Below are positions 19,122 to 30,090 of a DNA stretch of 64,000 bases, in pieces. This stretch comes from Rhizobium sp. FKL33 (GTDB lineage Bacteria > Pseudomonadota > Alphaproteobacteria > Rhizobiales > Rhizobiaceae), in the NCBI RefSeq assembly GCF_005222915.1, contig NZ_STFX01000021.1, positions 62,001 through 126,000 on the forward strand, read 5' to 3'. The notes beneath the pieces were generated by a model, which saw only the letters and a list, made by a program, of their open reading frames with translations, did no database searches and was not told the DNA's origin. How positions within the stretch are numbered: the first letter of the stretch is position 1; every line of letters begins with the position of its first letter. Position numbers and translations under genes: made by a program.

Positions 19122-19886
19122 TCAGAACCCGTCGCGGCCGCGGAAGCGGCGCTGATAATCGGGATCGTAGAGCGAACTCTCGCGAAAATCCTCCGCCGCC
19201 AGACCCGGGCCGACGAAAATCAGCGCCGTGCGGTCGATCGGATCTTCCTGAACCAGGGCCTCGATGGTCGACAAAGTTCCCCTGACGATTCGCTGGTCCG
19301 GCCAGCTCGCCTTGACGACAATGGCGACCGGGCAATCGGCGCCATAGAGCGGCATCAGTTCCGCCACCACCTGCGGCAAAGCGTGGATGGCGAGATGAAT
19401 GGCCAGCGTGGCCCCGCTCTGGCCGAAGACTTCCAGCCTCTCCTTGCCCGGCATCGGCGAAGCGCGGCCGGACACGCGGGTCAGCACCAGGCTTTGCGCC
19501 ACCGAGGGAATGGTCAGTTCACGGCCGAGCGCGGCGGCGGCGGCGGCGAAAGAAGGCACGCCGGGGGTGAGCGTATAGGCGATGCCGTGCCGATCCAGCC
19601 GGCGCATCTGTTCGGCGACCGCACTCCAGACCGAGAGATCGCCGGAATGCAGCCGCGCCACATCCTGGCCAGCGTCCTCGGCCTTGAGATATTCCGCTTC
19701 GATCTCGTCGAGCGACATCGGCGCCGTGTCGACGATACGCGCGCCTTCGGGGCAATAAGACAAAAGCTCCGGCGACACGATCGAGCCGGCATAGAGGCAA
19801 ACCGGGCACTCGCCGATCAGGCGGGCGCCGCGCAGGGTGATGAGATCGGCTGCGCCGGGGCCGGCGCCGATGAAATGTACCGTCAT
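19122..19886 (-). CDS. cobM: Precorrin-4 C11-methyltransferase
   Basis: Methylates C-11 of precorrin-4 using S-adenosylmethionine in aerobic cobalamin synthesis. The 254-residue protein has the tetrapyrrole methyltransferase N-terminus [20 protein letters not shown], the second landmark [16 protein letters not shown], and the [18 protein letters not shown] segment. Its ATG overlaps the cobL stop by 4 bases (ATGA), so the two are coupled. It is the last gene of the minus-strand cob series. Confidence 0.94.
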
Positions 19887-21130
19887 GTCTCGTCTTTCCA
19901 GTTATTCGGCTTCACCCAGCGCCATTGCGTGAGCGGCATCGCCGGTCGCCAACCGGTCATCGCGCCCACGGGCGAGGCGCGCGACAGTTCGATCCGCGTC
20001 AGCGATCCGCCGTGCTTGGCATGCGCCGCCAAGAGAACCGCATCCATTTCCAGGGTCACCGAATTGGCGACCAGTGTTCCCCCGGCTCTGAGCGCAGCGA
20101 TGGCCGCATCCATCACGCCGGGTTCGGAGCCGCCGCCGCCGATGAAGATCGCATCCGGCGTCGGAAGGCCTGAAAGCGCCGCTGGGGCCTGTCCTTCCAC
20201 CGTCACAAGTCCGGGAACGCCGAAGGCGGCCGCATTGCGGCGGATGCGGGCGGCGCGCTCGGCATGCGCCTCTATGGCGATGGCGCGCATGGCGGGATGG
20301 CGCAGCATCCATTCGATGCCGATCGAGCCGGAGCCCGCGCCGATATCCCACAGCAATTCGCCCTTGAGCGGCGATAGCGCCGACAATGTCAACGCGCGCG
20401 CCTCGCGCTTGGTGATCTGCCCGTCATGCTCGAACAGCGAATCGTCGAGGCCGGGCGCGAGCGGCAGCACGCGGGCGCCCTCGCCCGCCTCCACTTCGAC
20501 GGCGCAGATGTTCAGCGGGTTTACAGATGTGAGCGCATAGGCGTCGGCGCGCATCGCCGTCACCCGTTCGCTGTCGCCGCCCAATGCTTCGAGCACGAAC
20601 AGGCGGGAGGCGCCGAAGCCGCTCTCGGTCAGAAGCGACGCCAGCTCCGCCGGCCCCTTCTCATCCGAGGTCAAAGCGAGAATGCGGGCGCAGGGCTGCA
20701 GATGCGGGCGGATGAGATCGATAGGCCTGCCATGCAGCGACACCAGCGCCAGATCCTGCAGCGGCCAGCCGAGCCGGGACGCCGCCAGACTGAAGGCGCT
20801 GGGATGCGGGATGACCCGCATCTCGCTTGCGTCGACGCTGCGCGACAGCGTCGCGCCCATGCCGAAAAAGAAGGGATCGCCGGAGGCGAGCACGCAGACG
20901 CGACGGCCCCGCAGGCGCTTGATCTCCTGAACCGAGCGGTCGATGGGCGATGCCCAGCGCCGGCCCTCGCCTGATATCAGCGATGCGGCGAGCTCCAGGT
21001 GGCGAGCGCCGCCATAGACGATTTCGGCCGCTGCTATCCGGCGCTTGGCCTCGTCGCCGAGCCCGGCTATACCGTCTTCGCCGAGGCCGATAATGTCGAG
21101 CCAGAGCGTCGAAAGGATGTTTTCAGACAT
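19883..21130 (-). CDS. cobL: Precorrin-6Y C5,15-methyltransferase (decarboxylating)
   Basis: Methylates C-5 and C-15 of precorrin-6B and decarboxylates the C-12 acetate. It is the fused form of CbiE and CbiT: the N-terminal half has [15 protein letters not shown] and [14 protein letters not shown], and the C-terminal half has the SAM motif [16 protein letters not shown]. The start ATG at 21130 (415 residues) is preceded by GGAGG at proper spacing; the open frame further upstream is antisense to cobK. Its start codon and that of divergent cobK share the same CATG. Confidence 0.92.
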
Positions 21131-21887
21131 GGCGGCCTCCAAAATCCTCATTCTCGGCGGCACGACGGAAGCGCGCAAATTGGCTGAAGCGCTGGCGGCG
21201 CGCAAGGATCTCGATGTCATGGTGTCGCTGGCCGGCCGCACGCAGGAGCCCAGGCCGCTGCCGGTCAAAACCCGCCATCGCGGCTTCGGCGGCGTGGAAG
21301 GCCTCGCTGCCTATCTGAAAGCGGAGGACATCGCTCTGCTTGTTGACGCCACCCATCCCTTTGCACAGCGCATGACGCCCAACGCCATTGCCGCGGCTGG
21401 TCTGGTCGGAACGCCGCTGCTCTGCCTCAGCCGCCCCGGCTGGGTGGCGGAACCGGGCGACGATTGGCGCATGGCCAAATCGATCGAAGACGCGGTCGAA
21501 AAGCTCGGCGTCGCGCCGCGCCGCGTGTTTCTTGCCATTGGTCGGCAGGAGGCGCATCTGTTCTCGCGCGCGCCGCAGCATTTTTATCTCGCCCGCAGCG
21601 TCGATCCCATCGATCCGCCGATCGCGGCGCCGGACTGCCGCTACATTCTCGCGACCGGTCCCTTTTCGCTGGATGATGAAACAAAGCTGCTCACCGAACA
21701 CGCCATCGATGTGGTCGTGTCCAAAAATTCCGGCGGCGCGGCAACTTATGCCAAGATCGAGGCGGCGCGCCGTCTCGGACTGCCGGTGGTCATGGTCGAG
21801 CGCAAGCGCGTAGATGGGGCAACCTGCGTCGACACGGTCGAGGGCGCGCTGGCCTTCATCGATCACGCTTTGGCCCCAACGAAATAG
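21129..21887 (+). CDS. cobK: Precorrin-6A reductase
   Basis: NADPH-dependent reductase that converts precorrin-6A to precorrin-6B. The 252-residue protein has the N-terminal dinucleotide-binding motif KILILGGTTEARKLAEAL and the internal DATHPFAQRMTPNA and SKNSGGAATYAKIEAAR blocks of the family. The start is ATG 21129, overlapping the cobL start on the other strand. Its 3' end overlaps the cobJ 3' end by 25 bases. It is therefore wholly antisense to the cob transcript; any promoter of its own must lie inside cobL. An inverted cobK is also seen in related rhizobial cob clusters. Confidence 0.93.
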   Translation: MAASKILILGGTTEARKLAEALAARKDLDVMVSLAGRTQEPRPLPVKTRHRGFGGVEGLAAYLKAEDIALLVDATHPFAQRMTPNAIAAAGLVGTPLLCLSRPGWVAEPGDDWRMAKSIEDAVEKLGVAPRRVFLAIGRQEAHLFSRAPQHFYLARSVDPIDPPIAAPDCRYILATGPFSLDDETKLLTEHAIDVVVSKNSGGAATYAKIEAARRLGLPVVMVERKRVDGATCVDTVEGALAFIDHALAPTK

Positions 21888-22636
21888 CGCGGCGAATAGA
21901 CGAGATCGGCCTTGCCCGGACGCGCGATGACGCGGGTTTCCGGCGAGCCGATGATCACGCAGGTCGCCATGTCGGCCATGCCGGCTTCGGCCTCCGACAG
22001 CGGCTTGACCACGATCTTCTCGTCGGGCCGGCCGGCGGCGCGGCCGAAGATGATCGGCGTCGTCGGCGGCAGTATTTCGGCTAGCAATTTGAAGGCTTCG
22101 CCCAGCTGCCAGGGCCGCGCCTTGCTGATCGGATTATAGAGCGCGATCACGAAGCCGGCTTCGGCGGCGAGCCGCAGCCGCCTGGTGATGACCTCCCAGG
22201 GCTTCAGATTGTCCGACAGCGACATGCAGCAGAAATCATGACCGAGCGGCGCGCCGGAACGGGCGGCGACTGCCAGCATCGCGGTGACGCCGGGCGTCAC
22301 GACGAGGTCGATCTCGCGCCAGTCGTCCGGTCCCTTTTCGATCGCTTCGCAGACGGCGGCCGCCATCGCAAAGACGCCGGGATCGCCGCCCGAGACGACC
22401 GCGACATCAACGCCAGCGCTCGCGCGGGTCAGCGCAGCCTTGGCGCGGTCGAGTTCCTCGCGATTGTCGGAAGCGACGCGGATCTGGTCAGCGCGGAGCG
22501 ACAAACGGTCGATATAGGGGAAATAGCCGAAGAATTCCGTCGCCTTTTCTACTGCCGAAACGGCTTCAGGCGTCATCTGCTCCGGAGACCCCGGACCTGT
22601 GCCGATCACATAAAGCGTGCCCTTTCGGCCGGTCAT
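21863..22636 (-). CDS. cobJ: Precorrin-3B C17-methyltransferase
   Basis: Carries out ring contraction with C-17 methylation of precorrin-3B. The 257-residue protein has the N-terminal LYVIGTGPGSPEQMTPEAV motif and VAVVSGGDPGVFAMAAAVCE, the SAM-site hallmarks of this family, plus GHDFCCMSLSDNLKPW. The ATG overlaps the cobI stop by 4 bases. The 3' end overlaps cobK on the opposite strand. Confidence 0.94.
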   Translation of the reverse strand: MTGRKGTLYVIGTGPGSPEQMTPEAVSAVEKATEFFGYFPYIDRLSLRADQIRVASDNREELDRAKAALTRASAGVDVAVVSGGDPGVFAMAAAVCEAIEKGPDDWREIDLVVTPGVTAMLAVAARSGAPLGHDFCCMSLSDNLKPWEVITRRLRLAAEAGFVIALYNPISKARPWQLGEAFKLLAEILPPTTPIIFGRAAGRPDEKIVVKPLSEAEAGMADMATCVIIGSPETRVIARPGKADLVYSPRYFVGAKA

Positions 22637-23364
22637 GGCTTGTCCTTCCAGCCGGGCACGAGCACGATCGAGAAATAGGGCGCCGCGTCGTCCTGCTTCT
22701 GGGCGAGCGGAATCATCTGGGTGTTGGCCATGGTGCCGCGCTCGACATAGACGGCCTGATTGATTCGACCGGTCTCCGCCAGCGCCCGGCGGATTTTCGG
22801 CAGGTTGCGGCCCACCTTCATGATCACCGCCGCTTCGGTGTCGTTTAGTCGGCGAACCAATTCCTGCTCGGGCATCGTACCCGGCAAAACAGACAGCACA
22901 TCGTCGCCCTGAACGATTGGCACGCCCGCCTGCGACCAGCAGCCCGACATGGCGGTGACGCCCGGAATGACCTCGGTCGGATAGCGATGCGCGAGCCGCA
23001 CATGCAGATGCATATAGGAGCCGTAGAACAAGGGATCGCCCTCGCTCAGCACCGCCACGGTGCGGCCGGCGTCGAGATGTTCGGCGACGCGCACCGCCGA
23101 CTCCTCGTAGAAATCGGTGATCTGGCTGATATAGCCGTCCTCATGCTTCTCGATTTCCGTGGTCACCGGATAATAGAGCGGCAATTCGGTGATGTCGTCG
23201 CGCACGATGCCGTCGACGATGCCGCGGCCATTTCCGCGCCGTCCGGCCTTGGCGAAATAGGCCATCACATCGGCGGACGCCAACGCCTTCACCGCTTTTA
23301 CGGTCATCAGGTCGGGATCGCCGGGGCCGGTGCCGACGCCGATCAGTCGTCCCGGCGCGCTCAC
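22633..23364 (-). CDS. cobI: Precorrin-2 C20-methyltransferase
   Basis: Adds the C-20 methyl group to precorrin-2, committing it to the corrin branch. The 243-residue protein has GVGTGPGDPDLMTVKAVKAL, then AVLSEGDPLFYGSYMHLHVR and VIPGVTAMSGCWSQAGVPIV, all diagnostic. It overlaps cobH upstream and cobJ downstream by 4 bases each, a fully coupled series. Confidence 0.94.
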   Translation of the reverse strand: MSAPGRLIGVGTGPGDPDLMTVKAVKALASADVMAYFAKAGRRGNGRGIVDGIVRDDITELPLYYPVTTEIEKHEDGYISQITDFYEESAVRVAEHLDAGRTVAVLSEGDPLFYGSYMHLHVRLAHRYPTEVIPGVTAMSGCWSQAGVPIVQGDDVLSVLPGTMPEQELVRRLNDTEAAVIMKVGRNLPKIRRALAETGRINQAVYVERGTMANTQMIPLAQKQDDAAPYFSIVLVPGWKDKP

Positions 23365-23996
23365 AGGCCCGGCCTCGCGAGCGAGTTCAGCGCCGCCGCC
23401 GTCATGGCGCTGCCGCCCAGGCGGCCGCGCACGATGGCGAAGGGCACGCCATAGGAATTGTCAGCCAGCGCATCCTTGGATTCGCGCGCGCCGACAAAGC
23501 CCACCGGCATGCCGACGATTGCGGCCGGCTTGGGCACGGCGCCGTCGCGCAGGAGTTCGAGCAGATAGAACAGCGCGGTCGGCGCGTTGCCGATCGCCAC
23601 GACGGAGCCCGCCATGCGCTCGCCCCAGAGCTGGATCGCCGCCGCCGAGCGGGTGTTGCCGATCTCCTTGGCGATCTCGGCGGTGCGCGGATCGCGCAGC
23701 GTGCAGATCACGTCATTATTGGCCGGCAGCCGGGCTGCGGTCACGCCGCGCGCCACCATTTCCGCGTCGCAGAAGATCGGCGCGCCGGATTTCAGCGCGT
23801 TGCGGGCCGCGTCCACAAAGCCTGGCGAGAAGTGAAAATGCTCGACCGCCTCGACCATGCCGGCGGCATGGATCATGCGCACGGCGAGATCGGCCTCGGC
23901 TTCGGAGAAACGCGTGAGATCCGCCTCGCGGCGGATGATGGCGAAGGACTGCTCGTAAATGGCGTTCCCGTCGCGGATATAGTCGTATTCGGTCAT
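23361..23996 (-). CDS. cobH: Precorrin-8X methylmutase
   Basis: Moves the C-11 methyl group to C-12, giving hydrogenobyrinate. The 211-residue protein contains the catalytic-histidine region RMIHAAGMVEAVEHFHFSPG, and the C-terminal IVGMPVGFVGARESKDAL that is a strong family signature. It overlaps cobG and cobI by 4 bases each. Confidence 0.95.
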   Translation of the reverse strand: MTEYDYIRDGNAIYEQSFAIIRREADLTRFSEAEADLAVRMIHAAGMVEAVEHFHFSPGFVDAARNALKSGAPIFCDAEMVARGVTAARLPANNDVICTLRDPRTAEIAKEIGNTRSAAAIQLWGERMAGSVVAIGNAPTALFYLLELLRDGAVPKPAAIVGMPVGFVGARESKDALADNSYGVPFAIVRGRLGGSAMTAAALNSLARPGL

Positions 23997-25393
23997 GTCC
24001 CGTCCAGTTGCAGAGCCGAAGCGATGCGCCGCGCCCCGAGCCGTTTAAGGCACGATGCCGCCGATTCGCCATCCTCTCTGCTGTCCCGCACCATGGACGC
24101 CAGACGTCCAAATGCGCTCCCAATGTCGTTTTCAGCACTATAGGCGGATGGCGAGGCCGAAGCCGCCCCATTTACGACAAGCCCATAGCCTGTTGACGCA
24201 CCCACCAGCGTCAATACAGAAGCCGTCGGATGCGCACAACCCTTGGCGCAGCCCGACAAATGCAGGGTGAACGAGCCGTCCAGCAGCTCCGACGCAATGG
24301 CGACGAGGCGATCGGCCAGCGCCCGCGTGTCGAAATAGGCCGAGGCGCAGCCGGTCGCGCCCGCGCACAGCGCAATCGCGCGGCGGGTATCCGCAGAATC
24401 GGTCCAGAATCCCAGTTCGGCGGCGTCCTGTTGCAGCGCGCGCGCAGCCTCCTGCGAGGGGCAGCGCGCAAAGAAACCGTGATCAGGCGCCAGCCGCAGA
24501 TCGGCAATGCCGAGCGCTGTGGCGCGTTCGGCGAGCGCTCGGACCGCTGGGGCCTGCGCCTGGACATAGGCGAAGGACAGGCCCAGCGCCACGCCGCCGT
24601 CTTCGATAGGATGAAGGCCGAGAAGCGGCGGCGCCTGCGTCGATAGCTCGATCGCCCGAAGATCGATCCGCGTCGTGTAATGCGCCGAAAGCGCGTCATC
24701 GGGCAGGTCGCGTCCGCGCGCGCCCGGTCCCATCGCATGCAGCATGGTGAGAAGATGGAGCGCGGCGTCGACCGCCTGCCCTTCCTCGACGATGGCGAGA
24801 CGCCGCGCCTTCGCCGCCGTGCCGCCGCAGGACACCACGAAACGGATCTGCCCGCCCGAATCGCGGAACGCCGTCAGCCTGATATCCGCCGTCACCGCGC
24901 CCAGATGAAACCGTCCGCCGCCATCAATGGTGACAGCCAGCTTGGCCGCCAGCGCAAGCGGCGGTTCAAAGGCTGCGACGCGACCGCGAAGTTCGGCGGC
25001 GATCGGTCTGACATCGATCAGTTCATCCGGATCGAGCCCGGCGAGCGGCGGCGTCTCGACGCCGAGACCACGGGTCGGGATAACGCCGGACGCCAGCACC
25101 GCCGCTTCGAAATCCGCCACCGTTTCCGGCTTCAGGCCTCTCGCCTGCAGGCTGCCGCGGGCGGTGATCTCGATCAGGCCATTGCCGAACCGTTCTGTCG
25201 CCTCCGCGAGCGCTGAGAGTTGGGAAAAGGTCAGCGCCGAATTCACCGGTCTGAGACGCGCAAGCAAGCCGTCGCCTGTCGGCATCGGTTGAGACAGCGT
25301 CGGACATTCGCCGCGCCGGATCGGCGGCAAGGGGAAATGCTGTGCGGCGTTCGGCGAGAGCGCGAGGATCATGGCGTCATCCATCATGGGCAT
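23993..25393 (-). CDS. cobG: Precorrin-3B synthase (aerobic, iron-sulfur)
   Basis: Oxygen-dependent enzyme that makes the C-20 hydroxy gamma-lactone before ring contraction; its presence marks the aerobic pathway. The 466-residue protein is built like sulfite/nitrite reductases, with two ferredoxin-like half domains. Cysteines for a 4Fe-4S cluster are in CAGATGCASAYFDTR and LHLSGCAKGCAHPTA. The start is uncertain: ATG at 25393, 25387 or 25384 all fit, and AAAAGG lies about 12 bases ahead of the first. It follows cobF by 51 bp. Confidence 0.9.
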   Translation of the reverse strand: MPMMDDAMILALSPNAAQHFPLPPIRRGECPTLSQPMPTGDGLLARLRPVNSALTFSQLSALAEATERFGNGLIEITARGSLQARGLKPETVADFEAAVLASGVIPTRGLGVETPPLAGLDPDELIDVRPIAAELRGRVAAFEPPLALAAKLAVTIDGGGRFHLGAVTADIRLTAFRDSGGQIRFVVSCGGTAAKARRLAIVEEGQAVDAALHLLTMLHAMGPGARGRDLPDDALSAHYTTRIDLRAIELSTQAPPLLGLHPIEDGGVALGLSFAYVQAQAPAVRALAERATALGIADLRLAPDHGFFARCPSQEAARALQQDAAELGFWTDSADTRRAIALCAGATGCASAYFDTRALADRLVAIASELLDGSFTLHLSGCAKGCAHPTASVLTLVGASTGYGLVVNGAASASPSAYSAENDIGSAFGRLASMVRDSREDGESAASCLKRLGARRIASALQLDGT

Positions 25394-25444
25394 GAGTGTA
25401 AACGCCTTTTGTAAGCATCGGGCAAGAGAGCGCCTTGCGCGAGG

Positions 25445-26221
25445 TCAAGCCTCGTCATCGAAATCCGCGCCCTTGCGCAGGAGGTAGATATCCATGATCC
25501 AGCCATGCTCGGCCCGAGCCCGGGCGCGAGTCTCCAATATCTCCTGCTTCTTCTCCTGCAGATTGCCGGAAATGACGATCTCGTGCTCGGAGCCGAGATA
25601 GGCGCCCCAGAAGATTTCCGCTTCGGGATCGTCGATTTTCGCGAAGGCCTGTTCGCCGTCGAGCATCGCCACCGACGCCCGGCTCTTTTCGGGAAAGCTC
25701 TCCGCCAGACGCCGTCCCGTGGTGATTTCCACCGGCTTGCCGACGAGATTGAGCGGAATGCGATGCGCGGCGCAGAGCGCCTGGATCGAGGTGATGCCGG
25801 CAATCACCCTCACCTCGAATTCGACGCCGCCCGCCGCCCGCACCCGTTCAAGAATGCGCAGCGTCGAATCGTACAGCATCGGGTCGCCCCAGACGAGGAA
25901 GGCGCCAGTTCCGTCCTCGCCGAGTTCGTTCAGGAACAGGTCCTGATAGATTCGGGTGATGGCGGCATGCCAATCGTCGACGCCGCGCTGATAGCTTGGA
26001 TCGGCCGCGTTGCGCACCGGCAGCTGATAGTCGACGCTGCGGGTGGCGGAATTGGTGACATAGCGGCGAATGATCTCGCGCCTCGTCTCGGCGAGATCGG
26101 CCTTCTTAGCGCCCTTGGTCGGAATGAACAGCACATCGGCGCTGTTCAGCGCATTGATCGCTTCGATGGTCACATGCTCCGGATTGCCGGTTCCGATGCC
26201 GATCACGAGTATTCTGCGCAT
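25445..26221 (-). CDS. cobF: Precorrin-6A synthase (deacetylating, C1-methyltransferase)
   Basis: Methylates C-1 and releases acetate from precorrin-5, a step specific to the aerobic pathway. The 258-residue protein has ILVIGIGTGNPEHVTIEAIN at the N-terminus, LVWGDPMLYDSTLRILERV in the middle and VIAGITSIQALCAAHRIPLN, the methyltransferase landmarks in order. AAGGAGAC precedes the ATG. It is the first gene of the minus-strand series. No B12 box or cobalamin riboswitch was seen in the 187 bp upstream. Confidence 0.92.
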   Translation of the reverse strand: MRRILVIGIGTGNPEHVTIEAINALNSADVLFIPTKGAKKADLAETRREIIRRYVTNSATRSVDYQLPVRNAADPSYQRGVDDWHAAITRIYQDLFLNELGEDGTGAFLVWGDPMLYDSTLRILERVRAAGGVEFEVRVIAGITSIQALCAAHRIPLNLVGKPVEITTGRRLAESFPEKSRASVAMLDGEQAFAKIDDPEAEIFWGAYLGSEHEIVISGNLQEKKQEILETRARARAEHGWIMDIYLLRKGADFDDEA

Positions 26222-27300: not shown

Positions 27301-27930
27301 ATGTCCGAAACCGCTCCGACCGTGCTCTCCCAGAGCCGCCTCGCCTATCGCCAACTCGAAAATCTGATCGTCACGCTAAAGCTCGCGCCGGGCTCGCTGG
27401 TGACGGAAAAGCAGCTGATCGAAGAGCTCGGGCTTGGCCGCACGCCGGTGCGTGAAGCGATACAAAAGCTCGAATGGCAGGGCCTGATCGAGATCCGCCC
27501 CCGCGCCGGTCTGCAGATCGCGACGCTCAATCCGGACCATCCCGCCATGGTGCTGCAGACACGGCGGCAGTTGGAGCCGCTCGCCGCCCGGCTGATGGCT
27601 GACGTCATGACCGACGACACCCGCGCCAAGCTGATGGCCTGCGCCCGCACGATGACAGACTGCGCCGTGACCGGCGACAAGGAAGGCTTCCTCGCCGCCG
27701 ACAAGGCCTTCGACGAGATCCTCGAAGAGACATGCCCCAACCCGTTTCTGTCGCAGGCGCTCGGCGCCCTGCAGACGCATTCACGTCGCTATTGGTATGC
27801 GGGCGCGACGCAGGCCTCGCTCGATCTTTCGGTCAGTCTGCATGTGCGGGTGATCAGGGCTCTGTTGCAGGGTGACGGCGGCGAGGCGGAGCGCGCTATG
27901 GCCGATCTCGTCGACGGTCTGCGTCTATAG
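27301..27930 (+). CDS. GntR-family transcriptional regulator (FCD subfamily)
   Basis: The 209-residue protein has an N-terminal winged helix (ENLIVTLKLAPGSLVTEKQL, then LGLGRTPVREAIQKLEWQGL, residues about 20-65) and an all-helical FCD effector domain at residues 90-200. The D-x(3)-H-x(3)-H metal-site pattern is partly visible: D near DKAFDEILEE and the later H residues. It follows two palindromes that are probably its own operator. The regulated genes and ligand cannot be told; no obvious catabolic gene is adjacent on the same strand. Confidence 0.88.
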   Translation: MSETAPTVLSQSRLAYRQLENLIVTLKLAPGSLVTEKQLIEELGLGRTPVREAIQKLEWQGLIEIRPRAGLQIATLNPDHPAMVLQTRRQLEPLAARLMADVMTDDTRAKLMACARTMTDCAVTGDKEGFLAADKAFDEILEETCPNPFLSQALGALQTHSRRYWYAGATQASLDLSVSLHVRVIRALLQGDGGEAERAMADLVDGLRL

Positions 27931-28164
27931 CTCTGTTGGCAGCCGAAACCTGCCACGATGCTGCGCTACAAAACCTGAAATTTCCTCGGTTTATTGCGCC
28001 AAATCAAGTTTCAGCCAATCCCGATCGGCTATAGACAGGACCTGCCCGATGGAAAATCGCCTTGAATGGAGCGAGCAGGCCCGTTCAAGACAGATTCTCA
28101 TATATTTCGGATACGATAGCGGTCGGCTTGGCGGAGCCGGAGCGCAGTCCCGATCGGGAGCAAT

Positions 28165-28208
28165 GGGATCGGCGCGCAGGGAGACTCCGCGCCGATCCCT
28201 TTCATTTT
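28165..28208 (+). terminator. Strong hairpin between the GntR gene and DUF1491
   Basis: GGGATCGGCGCG (28165-28176) and CGCGCCGATCCC (28188-28199) form a perfect 12-bp stem with an 11-base loop, followed on the plus strand by TTTCATTTT. It is 235 bases past the GntR stop and directly beyond the DUF1491 stop on the other strand. It probably terminates from both sides. The 230 bases before it hold no convincing gene. Confidence 0.75.
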
Positions 28209-28561
28209 AGGAGATGTCCGGCTTCGTCGGCAACGGCAAACAGGTCGCCGATGTCGTCCACCTCGATTTCCACCAGCCACAGATCCGGATCGAATCGCAT
28301 TTCGCGGGCGATCACCTCGGCGCAGGCCTCTGGCTCGCTATCGCTCACCCGACGCTCGAATCGACGCTCTCCTGAACTTTCGCTATCGAAATAGCTTTGC
28401 GGGGCTGGGCCAAACAGCGTTTCCCGCCCATCTCGCCGTCTCTGCCGGATGAAGATCGCGCCGGCTTCAGCGGCGCCCTTGCGTTCGATGGCGGCATAGC
28501 CGCCAGCGGAGAAGATCCTGCGGGTCAAGGCGGATATGAAGAGGTCGGATGTAATGCGCAT
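28202..28561 (-). CDS. DUF1491 family protein
   Basis: The 119-residue protein matches the alphaproteobacterial DUF1491 family: MRITSDLFISALTRRIFSAG, then AAIERKGAAEAGAIFIRQ, then GPAPQSYF and EMRFDPDLWLVEIEVDD. The function is unknown. It is cytosolic, with no membrane segment. It lies 54 bp downstream of the FAD protein gene, probably as the last gene of a fpr, FAD-protein, DUF1491 transcript. A strong hairpin follows. Confidence 0.85.
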   Translation of the reverse strand: MRITSDLFISALTRRIFSAGGYAAIERKGAAEAGAIFIRQRRRDGRETLFGPAPQSYFDSESSGERRFERRVSDSEPEACAEVIAREMRFDPDLWLVEIEVDDIGDLFAVADEAGHLLK

Positions 28562-28615
28562 GAGAAACCCTTAGCGCAACTTGCGCAGCCATCGCAATCG
28601 CGCCTAGGTTCGCCG

Positions 28616-29278
28616 TTATTCCCCGGTGACGCGCTTGCGCATCCGGGTGGAGGTCGAGGAGAATTCGGGCGCCAGACGACTGAGCCCGGAGACAGCCTTC
28701 TTGATGGCGAACGCCGCCAGCGCCGCTTCGTGGCAGGCAGAGACGATCAGCGGCAGCTTGCCGGGATAAAGCGCGGCGTCGCCGATCGCATAGAGGCCCG
28801 GACATTCTGTCTCGAAGGTCGAAGGCGTTACGCAGATCGCGCCTTCCGGATCGCGCGCGCCTTCGGGCAAAGCCAATTGCATCCTGCCCTCGCCGCCGAA
28901 GAGCCCCAGTCCTGTCGCCAGGATCACGAAACTTGATGATATTTGTCGACCGTCAGCGAGCAGCAGCCGGAACTCCGCCTCGCCTCTCAGGATGGCGTCG
29001 ACCCTGCAATCGTAAAGAAATGTCTGAGAAAATGGCTCTGTCTGGGCTAGAAGCCGTTCAGCGATGTCGCCCGCCAGCGCCTCGCGAAACCCGGGAACAT
29101 CATAGACCGGCTTGTCGGCATAGAGCGCGGCGCATTGTCCGCCCGATCTCGCGGCGGCCTCGATCACCGTGGCGGCGACGCCATGCAATCCGAGTTGAAA
29201 AGCGGCCCAGAGCCCTGCCGGCCCTGCGCCGACGATGGCGACGCTGTCATCGGATGCAACGTCGCCCGTATCGCTCAT
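28616..29278 (-). CDS. Ferredoxin-reductase-like FAD protein without the NADPH-binding domain
   Basis: The 220-residue protein resembles the thioredoxin-reductase-like ferredoxin-NADP reductases (normally about 340 residues). The FAD GAGPAG motif is at 17-22, then RSGGQCAALYADKPVYDVPG (45-64), VILATG (118-123), YAIGD (163-167), YPGKLPLIVSACHEAALAA (171-189) and a C-terminal STSTRMRKR tail like the family's. Between VILATG and the FETECPGLYAIGD block only some 30 residues remain, where relatives have about 120 forming the NADPH domain with its second glycine-rich motif. The frame is intact, so this looks like a clean domain loss. No CxxC is present. The ATG shares one base with the stop of fpr (TGATG). 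It may receive electrons from another flavoprotein or act as a sensor; that is inference. Confidence 0.8.
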   Translation of the reverse strand: MSDTGDVASDDSVAIVGAGPAGLWAAFQLGLHGVAATVIEAAARSGGQCAALYADKPVYDVPGFREALAGDIAERLLAQTEPFSQTFLYDCRVDAILRGEAEFRLLLADGRQISSSFVILATGLGLFGGEGRMQLALPEGARDPEGAICVTPSTFETECPGLYAIGDAALYPGKLPLIVSACHEAALAAFAIKKAVSGLSRLAPEFSSTSTRMRKRVTGE

Positions 29279-30090
29279 CAGTCGACGAAAGCGCGTTCGA
29301 TGACGAATTCGCCCGGCTTGTTGTTCGCGCCTTCATTGAGGCCGGCGTCGATCAGCAACTGTTTGGTTTCCTTGAGCATGGCGGCCGAGCCGCAGATCAT
29401 GCCGCGATCCACGGCGGGATCGAGCGGCGGCACGCCGAGATCGGTAAACATCTTGCCCGAACGGATATTGTCGGTGATGCGGCCCTGGAAGGGATAGTCT
29501 TCGCGCGTCACGGTGGCGTAGTGCTTGAGCTTGTCGCCCACCACTTCGCTCAGGAATTCGTGATTCTTGATCTCGTCGATCAGGTCGAAGCCGTATTGCA
29601 ACTCGGCCACTTCGCGCGTCGTGTGGCAGAGGATCACTTCCTCGAACTTCTCATAGGTCTCGGGGTCGCGGATCAGGCTGGCGAAGGGCGCGATGCCGGT
29701 GCCGGTCGAAAACATGTAGAGCCGCTTGCCGGGCAGCAGCGCGTCATTGACCAGCGTGCCGGTGGACTTCTTGCGCATCAGCACGGTGTCGCCGACCTTC
29801 ACATTCTGGAGATGCTGGGTCAGCGGCCCTTCCGGCACCTTGATCGAGAAGAATTCGAGCTCCTCGTCCCAGGCCGGGCTGGCGATCGAATAGGCGCGAT
29901 AAATAGGCTTGCCCTCGACCATCAGGCCGATCATCGCGAATTCGCCGGAGCGGAAACGGAAGTCCTGCGGCCGCGTCATACGGAATCGGAACAGCCGATC
30001 CGTGTAATGCTGGACGGCGGTCACGGTTTCGGCATAGACGCCCGCGGGAATAGCGGAAACGATTTCGGGATTGGTGGCGGGCGCGTTCAT
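29278..30090 (-). CDS. fpr: Ferredoxin-NADP reductase (FPR type)
   Basis: Transfers electrons between NADPH and ferredoxin or flavodoxin, with FAD as cofactor. The 270-residue protein starts MNAPATNPEIVSAIPAGVYA at ATG 30090. FAD-binding RAYSIASP (about residue 64), the phosphate loop SIKVPEGPLTQHL, the NADP-binding STGTGIAPFASLIRDPETY, ICGSAAMLKETKQLLIDAGL and the C-terminal FVIERAFVD are all present. The frame stays open upstream to 30225 but the added part is unlike the family. It is translationally coupled to the FAD half-protein downstream. Confidence 0.93.
   Translation of the reverse strand: MNAPATNPEIVSAIPAGVYAETVTAVQHYTDRLFRFRMTRPQDFRFRSGEFAMIGLMVEGKPIYRAYSIASPAWDEELEFFSIKVPEGPLTQHLQNVKVGDTVLMRKKSTGTLVNDALLPGKRLYMFSTGTGIAPFASLIRDPETYEKFEEVILCHTTREVAELQYGFDLIDEIKNHEFLSEVVGDKLKHYATVTREDYPFQGRITDNIRSGKMFTDLGVPPLDPAVDRGMICGSAAMLKETKQLLIDAGLNEGANNKPGEFVIERAFVD

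Follow-up and report, generated by a model that had tools for sequence, protein, structure and literature searches.

The ferredoxin-NADP reductase (FNR) of R. palustris, RpFNR (RPA3954, PDB 5ygq), normally moves electrons between NADPH and a small iron-sulfur protein, belongs to the TrxR type and carries an NADP(H)-binding domain (residues 127-250) between the two blocks of its FAD domain (residues 2-122 and 255-344; PMC9137726). The protein analyzed here, half-FNR, resembles RpFNR in its two-block FAD domain, flavin-contacting Tyr, Asp and C-terminal aromatic residue, and full-length relatives in Hyphomicrobiales often have a ferredoxin gene directly upstream. However, it has no counterpart of the 127-250 NADP(H) domain. 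A FAD-domain-only TrxR fold like that of half-FNR occurs in T. thermophilus TTHA0370, a 'thioredoxin reductase-related protein' with 180 residues in its structure (2cvj) that is mentioned in passing in the open-licence literature. Half-FNR likewise consists of a FAD domain only, in the range of about 180-220 residues, and its structural model matches 2cvj with a Foldseek E of 3.3e-11, a TM of 0.76 by target length and 21% identity. Yet a profile search with a cut-off of E 1e-8 did not pick up 2cvj, while 5ygq scored 2e-75 in it, so TTHA0370 may share its descent with half-FNR or may have lost the domain independently. FFTR (PMC12796991) is a TrxR-type flavoprotein that is reduced by ferredoxin rather than NADPH; the structure 6xtf shows an FFTR in complex with its electron donor. 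FFTR, which reduces thioredoxin, has retained a second domain bearing a CxxC disulfide, whereas the stretch corresponding to this second domain, with its redox-active CxxC, is absent from half-FNR. Precedents exist both for the FAD-only fold (2cvj) and for flavoproteins of the TrxR type that are driven by ferredoxin (FFTR). An initial annotation of the locus had been aware of no described system like this; in the open-licence literature we indeed found no description of an FNR without NADPH domain, but the 2cvj structure and FFTR are partial precedents.

Gene organization

The window is a stretch of 64,000 nucleotides from Rhizobium sp. FKL33, whose genome is G000 in our numbering (L048 is the locus of G003 and L071 that of G304). 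The half-FNR gene (28616..29278, (-)) starts with ATG and encodes 220 amino acids corresponding to the FAD domain of a TrxR-type FNR without its NADP(H) domain. Pfam assigned the protein to generic FAD-oxidoreductase families, with Pyr_redox_2 on top in two pieces, and a Pfam search for DNA-binding or signalling domains found none. In a phmmer comparison with PDB the best match was 5ygq: residues 12-127 align with 8-124 and residues 147-217 with 269-339. The NADP(H) domain is absent between these blocks, a linker of 19 residues (128-146; 28841..28897, (-)) standing for 144 residues of the full enzyme, which leaves half-FNR a net 125 residues shorter. Since the NADP(H) domain of 5ygq spans 127-250, the alignment gap corresponds to the loss of one whole domain. 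The initial annotation had noticed this loss but set it too low, at about 90 residues. It was right that the 220-residue protein keeps the FAD-side landmarks of TrxR-like FNRs, as the glycine-rich start and the motifs GGQC..LY..KP..D.P, GD....YPGK and HEAA are all present, and that no frameshift is involved: the reading frame is open and the same stretch is missing from the homologues in 23 other genomes. For want of the NADP(H) domain, half-FNR is expected to have no NADPH-ferredoxin oxidoreductase activity.

Genomic context of the overlap with fpr

Directly upstream of half-FNR in the window's genus lies fpr (29278..30090, (-)), which encodes a 270-residue ferredoxin/flavodoxin-NADP(+) reductase of the bacterial FPR type. 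Its name is based on the best NCBIfam match, NF008178, at 136 bits (under the curated cut-off of 390), and on Pfam FAD_binding_6; the match to NAD_binding_1 falls slightly under its cut-off. Fpr and half-FNR belong to different Pfam families and have unrelated folds, in agreement with the initial annotation, and fpr is a partner gene and no relative. At the junction, ..GTCGACTGATGAGC.., the A of the fpr stop codon TGA is the A of the half-FNR ATG, the one-base overlap noted earlier. This TGATG (29276..29280, (-)) is common to the four carriers of the window's genus, G000, G003, G001 and G006, which are 4 of the 24 short-form genomes identified below.

Other neighbours are less constant. The downstream DUF1491 gene (28202..28561, (-)) adjoins half-FNR in G000 and G003 only (2/24), and in G002 it lies behind fpr with no half-FNR. 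The GntR/FCD regulator gene (27301..27930, (+)) directly adjoins fpr, without half-FNR in between, in G004, G007 and, outside the genus, G249. Within the genus, G002, G004 and G007 have no half-FNR at fpr, neither neighbour was seen in the stretch of G005 that was compared, and no fpr was found in G008. The suggested link of the short form with fpr is therefore special to this genus, and that with DUF1491 to two genomes of it. Upstream of fpr in G006 and G001 are cysI and a DUF934 gene, both named by eye. A run of cobalamin-biosynthesis-like genes, from cobM to cobF (named by eye; window 19122-26221), adjoins the NAD kinase/fpr block, and CobF and CobG matches are also found beside the fpr block in G001, G003 and G006.

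The segment between GntR and half-FNR (window 27301-29278 against L048) has diverged strongly between G000 and G003: identity is 54% for half-FNR (dS 1.44), 64% for DUF1491 (dS 1.26) and 80% for GntR (dS 0.82). The flanking proteins are much closer, with 97% for Fpr (dS 0.39), 96% for NAD kinase (0.56), 95% for CobF (0.31) and 99% for Mfd (0.23). A possible reason for this difference is a recombinational exchange of the half-FNR/DUF1491/GntR segment. G003 also has two genes with no counterpart called at these places in the window, one for a 534-residue repeat protein between GntR and DUF1491 (L048:7561-9165) and one for a 647-residue 5'-nucleotidase-like protein (by eye) in the gap between fpr and an aldolase-like gene (L048:11426-13369).

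Distribution of the short form

A first search of the family found matches at E 1e-25 or better in 25 of 394 genomes, 24 with the short form and one (G304) with a full-length FNR. The 24 belong to 10 genera of the sampled family, which is probably Rhizobiaceae as broadly circumscribed by GTDB. When a different short form served as query, at an E of 1e-10 and with at most 7 candidates scored per genome, this second search gave matches in 153 of the 394: the same 24 genomes had one match each and 129 had two or four. The latter is the two-piece pattern of full-length FNR, although some of these matches lie in short frames (G752, G331, G227). Neither form was found by this search in 241 of the 394 genomes, so the function is dispensable. 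With at most 7 candidates scored per genome, no genome out of 394 showed both forms, and the idea that half-FNR pairs with a full-length FNR as a heteromer was discarded since none of the 24 short-form genomes shows such an enzyme. Among 397 genomes of the order 262 matched, with a single match in eight: the known short-form genomes G000 and G086, and G419, G470, G505, G552, G634 and G750.

The short proteins are 196-230 residues long and the 115 others 311-362 (one of 311 is cut by a contig end), a bimodal distribution with L108 (166 residues) as outlier. Homologues of similar length lacking the NADPH domain, which the initial annotation proposed to search for, thus exist in 24 family genomes. 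This rules out a gene unique to the strain and an assembly or sequencing error that deleted an in-frame segment, two possibilities that had been raised against it. Among named loci, at least seven short forms occur within the best 80 of 542 confirmed; those among the matches listed come from Corticibacterium sp., Rhizobium sp. GN54, Brucella cytisi, Ochrobactrum sp. and three other Rhizobiales, one of them L108, and at least three of the seven probably duplicate genomes of the family set, namely G158, G176 and G292. NCBI places Corticibacterium in Phyllobacteriaceae. Spread by plasmids was considered and rejected, since there was one match among 72,556 records, in Caballeronia (38%, covering 59% of the query).

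Selection and evolutionary history

In all 14 analyst-chosen pairs of short forms, several with dS > 1 and some sharing species, dN/dS was between 0.076 and 0.284 (Nei-Gojobori, own script). The FAD domain of full-length family FNRs gave 0.033-0.101 in the 5 usable of 7 pairs, leaving out L200-L112 and L193-L197, the latter for saturated dS. Between genera, FAD-domain identity is 46% among short forms (238 pairs) versus 81% among full-length enzymes (171 pairs). Half-FNR is therefore under purifying selection, but the constraint is looser and the protein evolves faster than full-length FNR.

In a maximum likelihood tree of 86 of the 140 extracted sequences, the full-length FNR of G304 fell within the short forms. 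Support was 100 for G304 with G132, g29 and g1, 34 for all short forms with G304, and 99 once the full-length L030 was added. If this topology holds, several domain losses are needed. However, long branches make the tree weak evidence on the number of losses, and a tree with all short forms together was not rejected (AU p 0.22). The G304 protein (L071:8957-10009), a divergent full-length FNR encoded behind an FdVI-type ferredoxin that groups with the short forms, may be a surviving undeleted relative or a sign of several losses.

Flavin site and predicted fold

Twenty-five positions do not vary among the 24 short forms and reach an identity of 95% or more in 55 full-length FNRs from alphaproteobacteria. 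These positions include Tyr53 and Asp60, present in all 24, which by alignment are the counterparts of Tyr50 and Asp57 in the B. subtilis enzyme, residues that stack on and bond to the flavin (PMC10526003). The C-terminal extension is also represented in the window protein, whose Phe206 aligns with the re-face Tyr328 of RpFNR. At this position the 24 short forms have Tyr or Phe in 16 cases, Thr in one and a gap in seven; in these seven, the part of the C-terminus that covers the flavin does not align. Since the re-face flavin-stacking residue of FNR comes from the opposite monomer (PMC10294844), its conservation is a hint in the sequence that the dimer may be retained.

The structure prediction that the initial annotation had proposed as a check gave a confident model of the FAD domain (AlphaFold2, 49 sequences of 73), with a pLDDT of 88.6, a pTM of 0.87 and values under 50 only at residues 1-9. 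A Foldseek search with this predicted fold placed 5ygq first and included 2cvj and 6xtf among the matches. We infer that half-FNR binds FAD and probably dimerizes.

Ferredoxin neighbourhood

Outside the window's genus, each of the 20 short genes lies directly behind a gene for a 106- to 107-residue FdVI-type [2Fe-2S] ferredoxin, which matches R. capsulatus ferredoxin VI (PDB 1e9m) at 6e-35. With half-FNR start codons chosen by the analyst, the distance from the half-FNR start to the ferredoxin stop is -4 to 153 nt in these 20 and -1 to 62 nt in all seven named short loci listed. In L108 an even shorter half-FNR (L108:5986-6483, 166 residues) begins at a start codon that overlaps the ferredoxin stop by one base, as TGATG. 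None of the 20 stretches around these short genes contains fpr, which is encoded elsewhere in the genome in G036, G249 and G275, the three where it was sought. Full-length FNRs, non-alphaproteobacterial ones included, have a ferredoxin within about 300 nt upstream in 60 of 115 cases (distances to BLAST match ends). As full-length enzymes are often found at the same place, the short form fills an ancestral ferredoxin-FNR slot.

The gene order at this locus appears to be shared across genera (by eye; L051, L054, L058, L060 and L210-L213, with some genes uncalled in some loci): Hpt-like gene, ferredoxin, the FNR slot, a gene for a secreted-looking protein on the opposite strand, folP, folB and folK. 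In the genome of the window the FdVI-type ferredoxin is encoded on another contig (G000:C55), and for that reason it was outside the view of the initial annotation. The FNR slot is empty in the four genomes of this genus compared, the carriers G000, G003 and G001 and the non-carrier G002, and its flanking genes are in place in all four. A remnant of half-FNR was sought in the four slots and gave no convincing match (best E 0.26). The simplest history is that half-FNR moved from the ferredoxin to fpr in the window's genus and was then lost in some lineages.

Proposed function

In some soil and plant bacteria, selection has thus kept a FAD half next to electron-transfer partners, and it may represent a minimal flavin protein able to do without NADPH. 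On balance, half-FNR is probably a functional, domain-reduced descendant of a TrxR-type FNR that has kept FAD only and exchanges electrons with FdVI, Fpr or both, and not with NADPH. Its ancestor would have been a TrxR-type FNR of the kind often encoded behind FdVI-type ferredoxins in Hyphomicrobiales. The FAD site would have been kept, and probably the homodimer, and NADP(H) binding lost. Having no NADPH domain, the protein could not take up hydride from NADPH in the usual manner, and the kept flavin site together with partner genes that are one-electron or NADPH-linked leads us to propose electron exchange from protein to protein, which would take place at the exposed flavin edge. We infer this exchange, its direction and its final acceptor. 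Its partners would be FdVI, which was its neighbour ancestrally, and also Fpr within the window's genus, where Fpr could take the hydride from NADPH in half-FNR's stead. Reduction by Fpr or ferredoxin, as first suggested, is still the most likely reading, but the link with fpr does not extend outside the genus, where FdVI is the commonest and ancestral neighbour (20/20). More tentatively, and somewhat improbably, both partners could be joined in a relay, NADPH to Fpr to half-FNR to FdVI, with single electrons passed to FdVI. If true, NADPH oxidation would have been outsourced and the two domains of one enzyme replaced by two proteins of unrelated fold.

Adjacency to FdVI was probably inherited from the full-length ancestor and so proves little about a present interaction; the full-length R. 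palustris FNR shows little reactivity towards the Fe2S2 ferredoxin RPA3956, two locus tags away (PMC9137726). Also speaking against the preferred reading are the fast evolution of the short forms, the seven proteins with an unaligned tail, the 241 family genomes in which the search gave neither form, and the three fpr loci of the genus that lack half-FNR. More independent hints of partnership come from the overlap with fpr and, in L108, from the TGATG shared with the ferredoxin gene.

It is possible, though we would not expect it, that half-FNR is a ferredoxin-driven flavin reductase that needs no Fpr, with electrons passing from reduced FdVI through half-FNR to a small terminal acceptor (a quinone, a ferric complex, oxygen or another flavin) that would be reduced on the side left bare by the missing NADPH domain. 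The constant company of FdVI outside the genus, in stretches free of fpr, agrees with this, as does FFTR, an example of a TrxR-type FAD domain that ferredoxin is able to reduce (PMC12796991) and whose structure 6xtf is among the fold matches. However, no acceptor gene is evident beside half-FNR, and the coupling to fpr in the window's genus would be left unexplained. A redox-inactive or regulatory role, in which the protein with its bound flavin would dock to or sense FdVI or Fpr and so hold or control it, is unlikely: it would fit the loss of the catalytic NADPH half with retention of the FAD site, and the faster evolution relative to the full-length enzyme, but the flavin-contacting residues of the enzyme are kept and Pfam detects no DNA-binding or signalling domain. 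We regard as very unlikely that half-FNR is a decaying remnant of a lost FNR on its way to the 'neither' state. Most of the sampled family genomes are in that state (241/394), branches are long and the C-terminal tail is unaligned in 7 of 24; against this, the frame is open in all 24 genomes, which span 10 genera, dN/dS is far under 1 in all 14 chosen pairs, lengths are bimodal (L108 excepted) and the overlap with fpr is new and conserved. A split enzyme with its NADPH domain in a separate gene, nearby or elsewhere, is barely credible, as the family-FNR NADPH-domain query matched, in the 24 genomes and at E up to 0.01, only inside frames of at least 327 residues.

The preferred reading, a functional FAD-only protein with FdVI or Fpr as partner, bears on the biology of FdVI, which in Rhodobacter capsulatus resisted attempts at gene deletion (PMC10936413). 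A FAD-only protein that selection has kept beside FdVI, that would no longer bind NADPH and whose gene in one genus overlaps that of an unrelated NADPH reductase offers a simple, testable handle on how FdVI is reduced and on the evolutionary dismantling of two-domain flavoenzymes.
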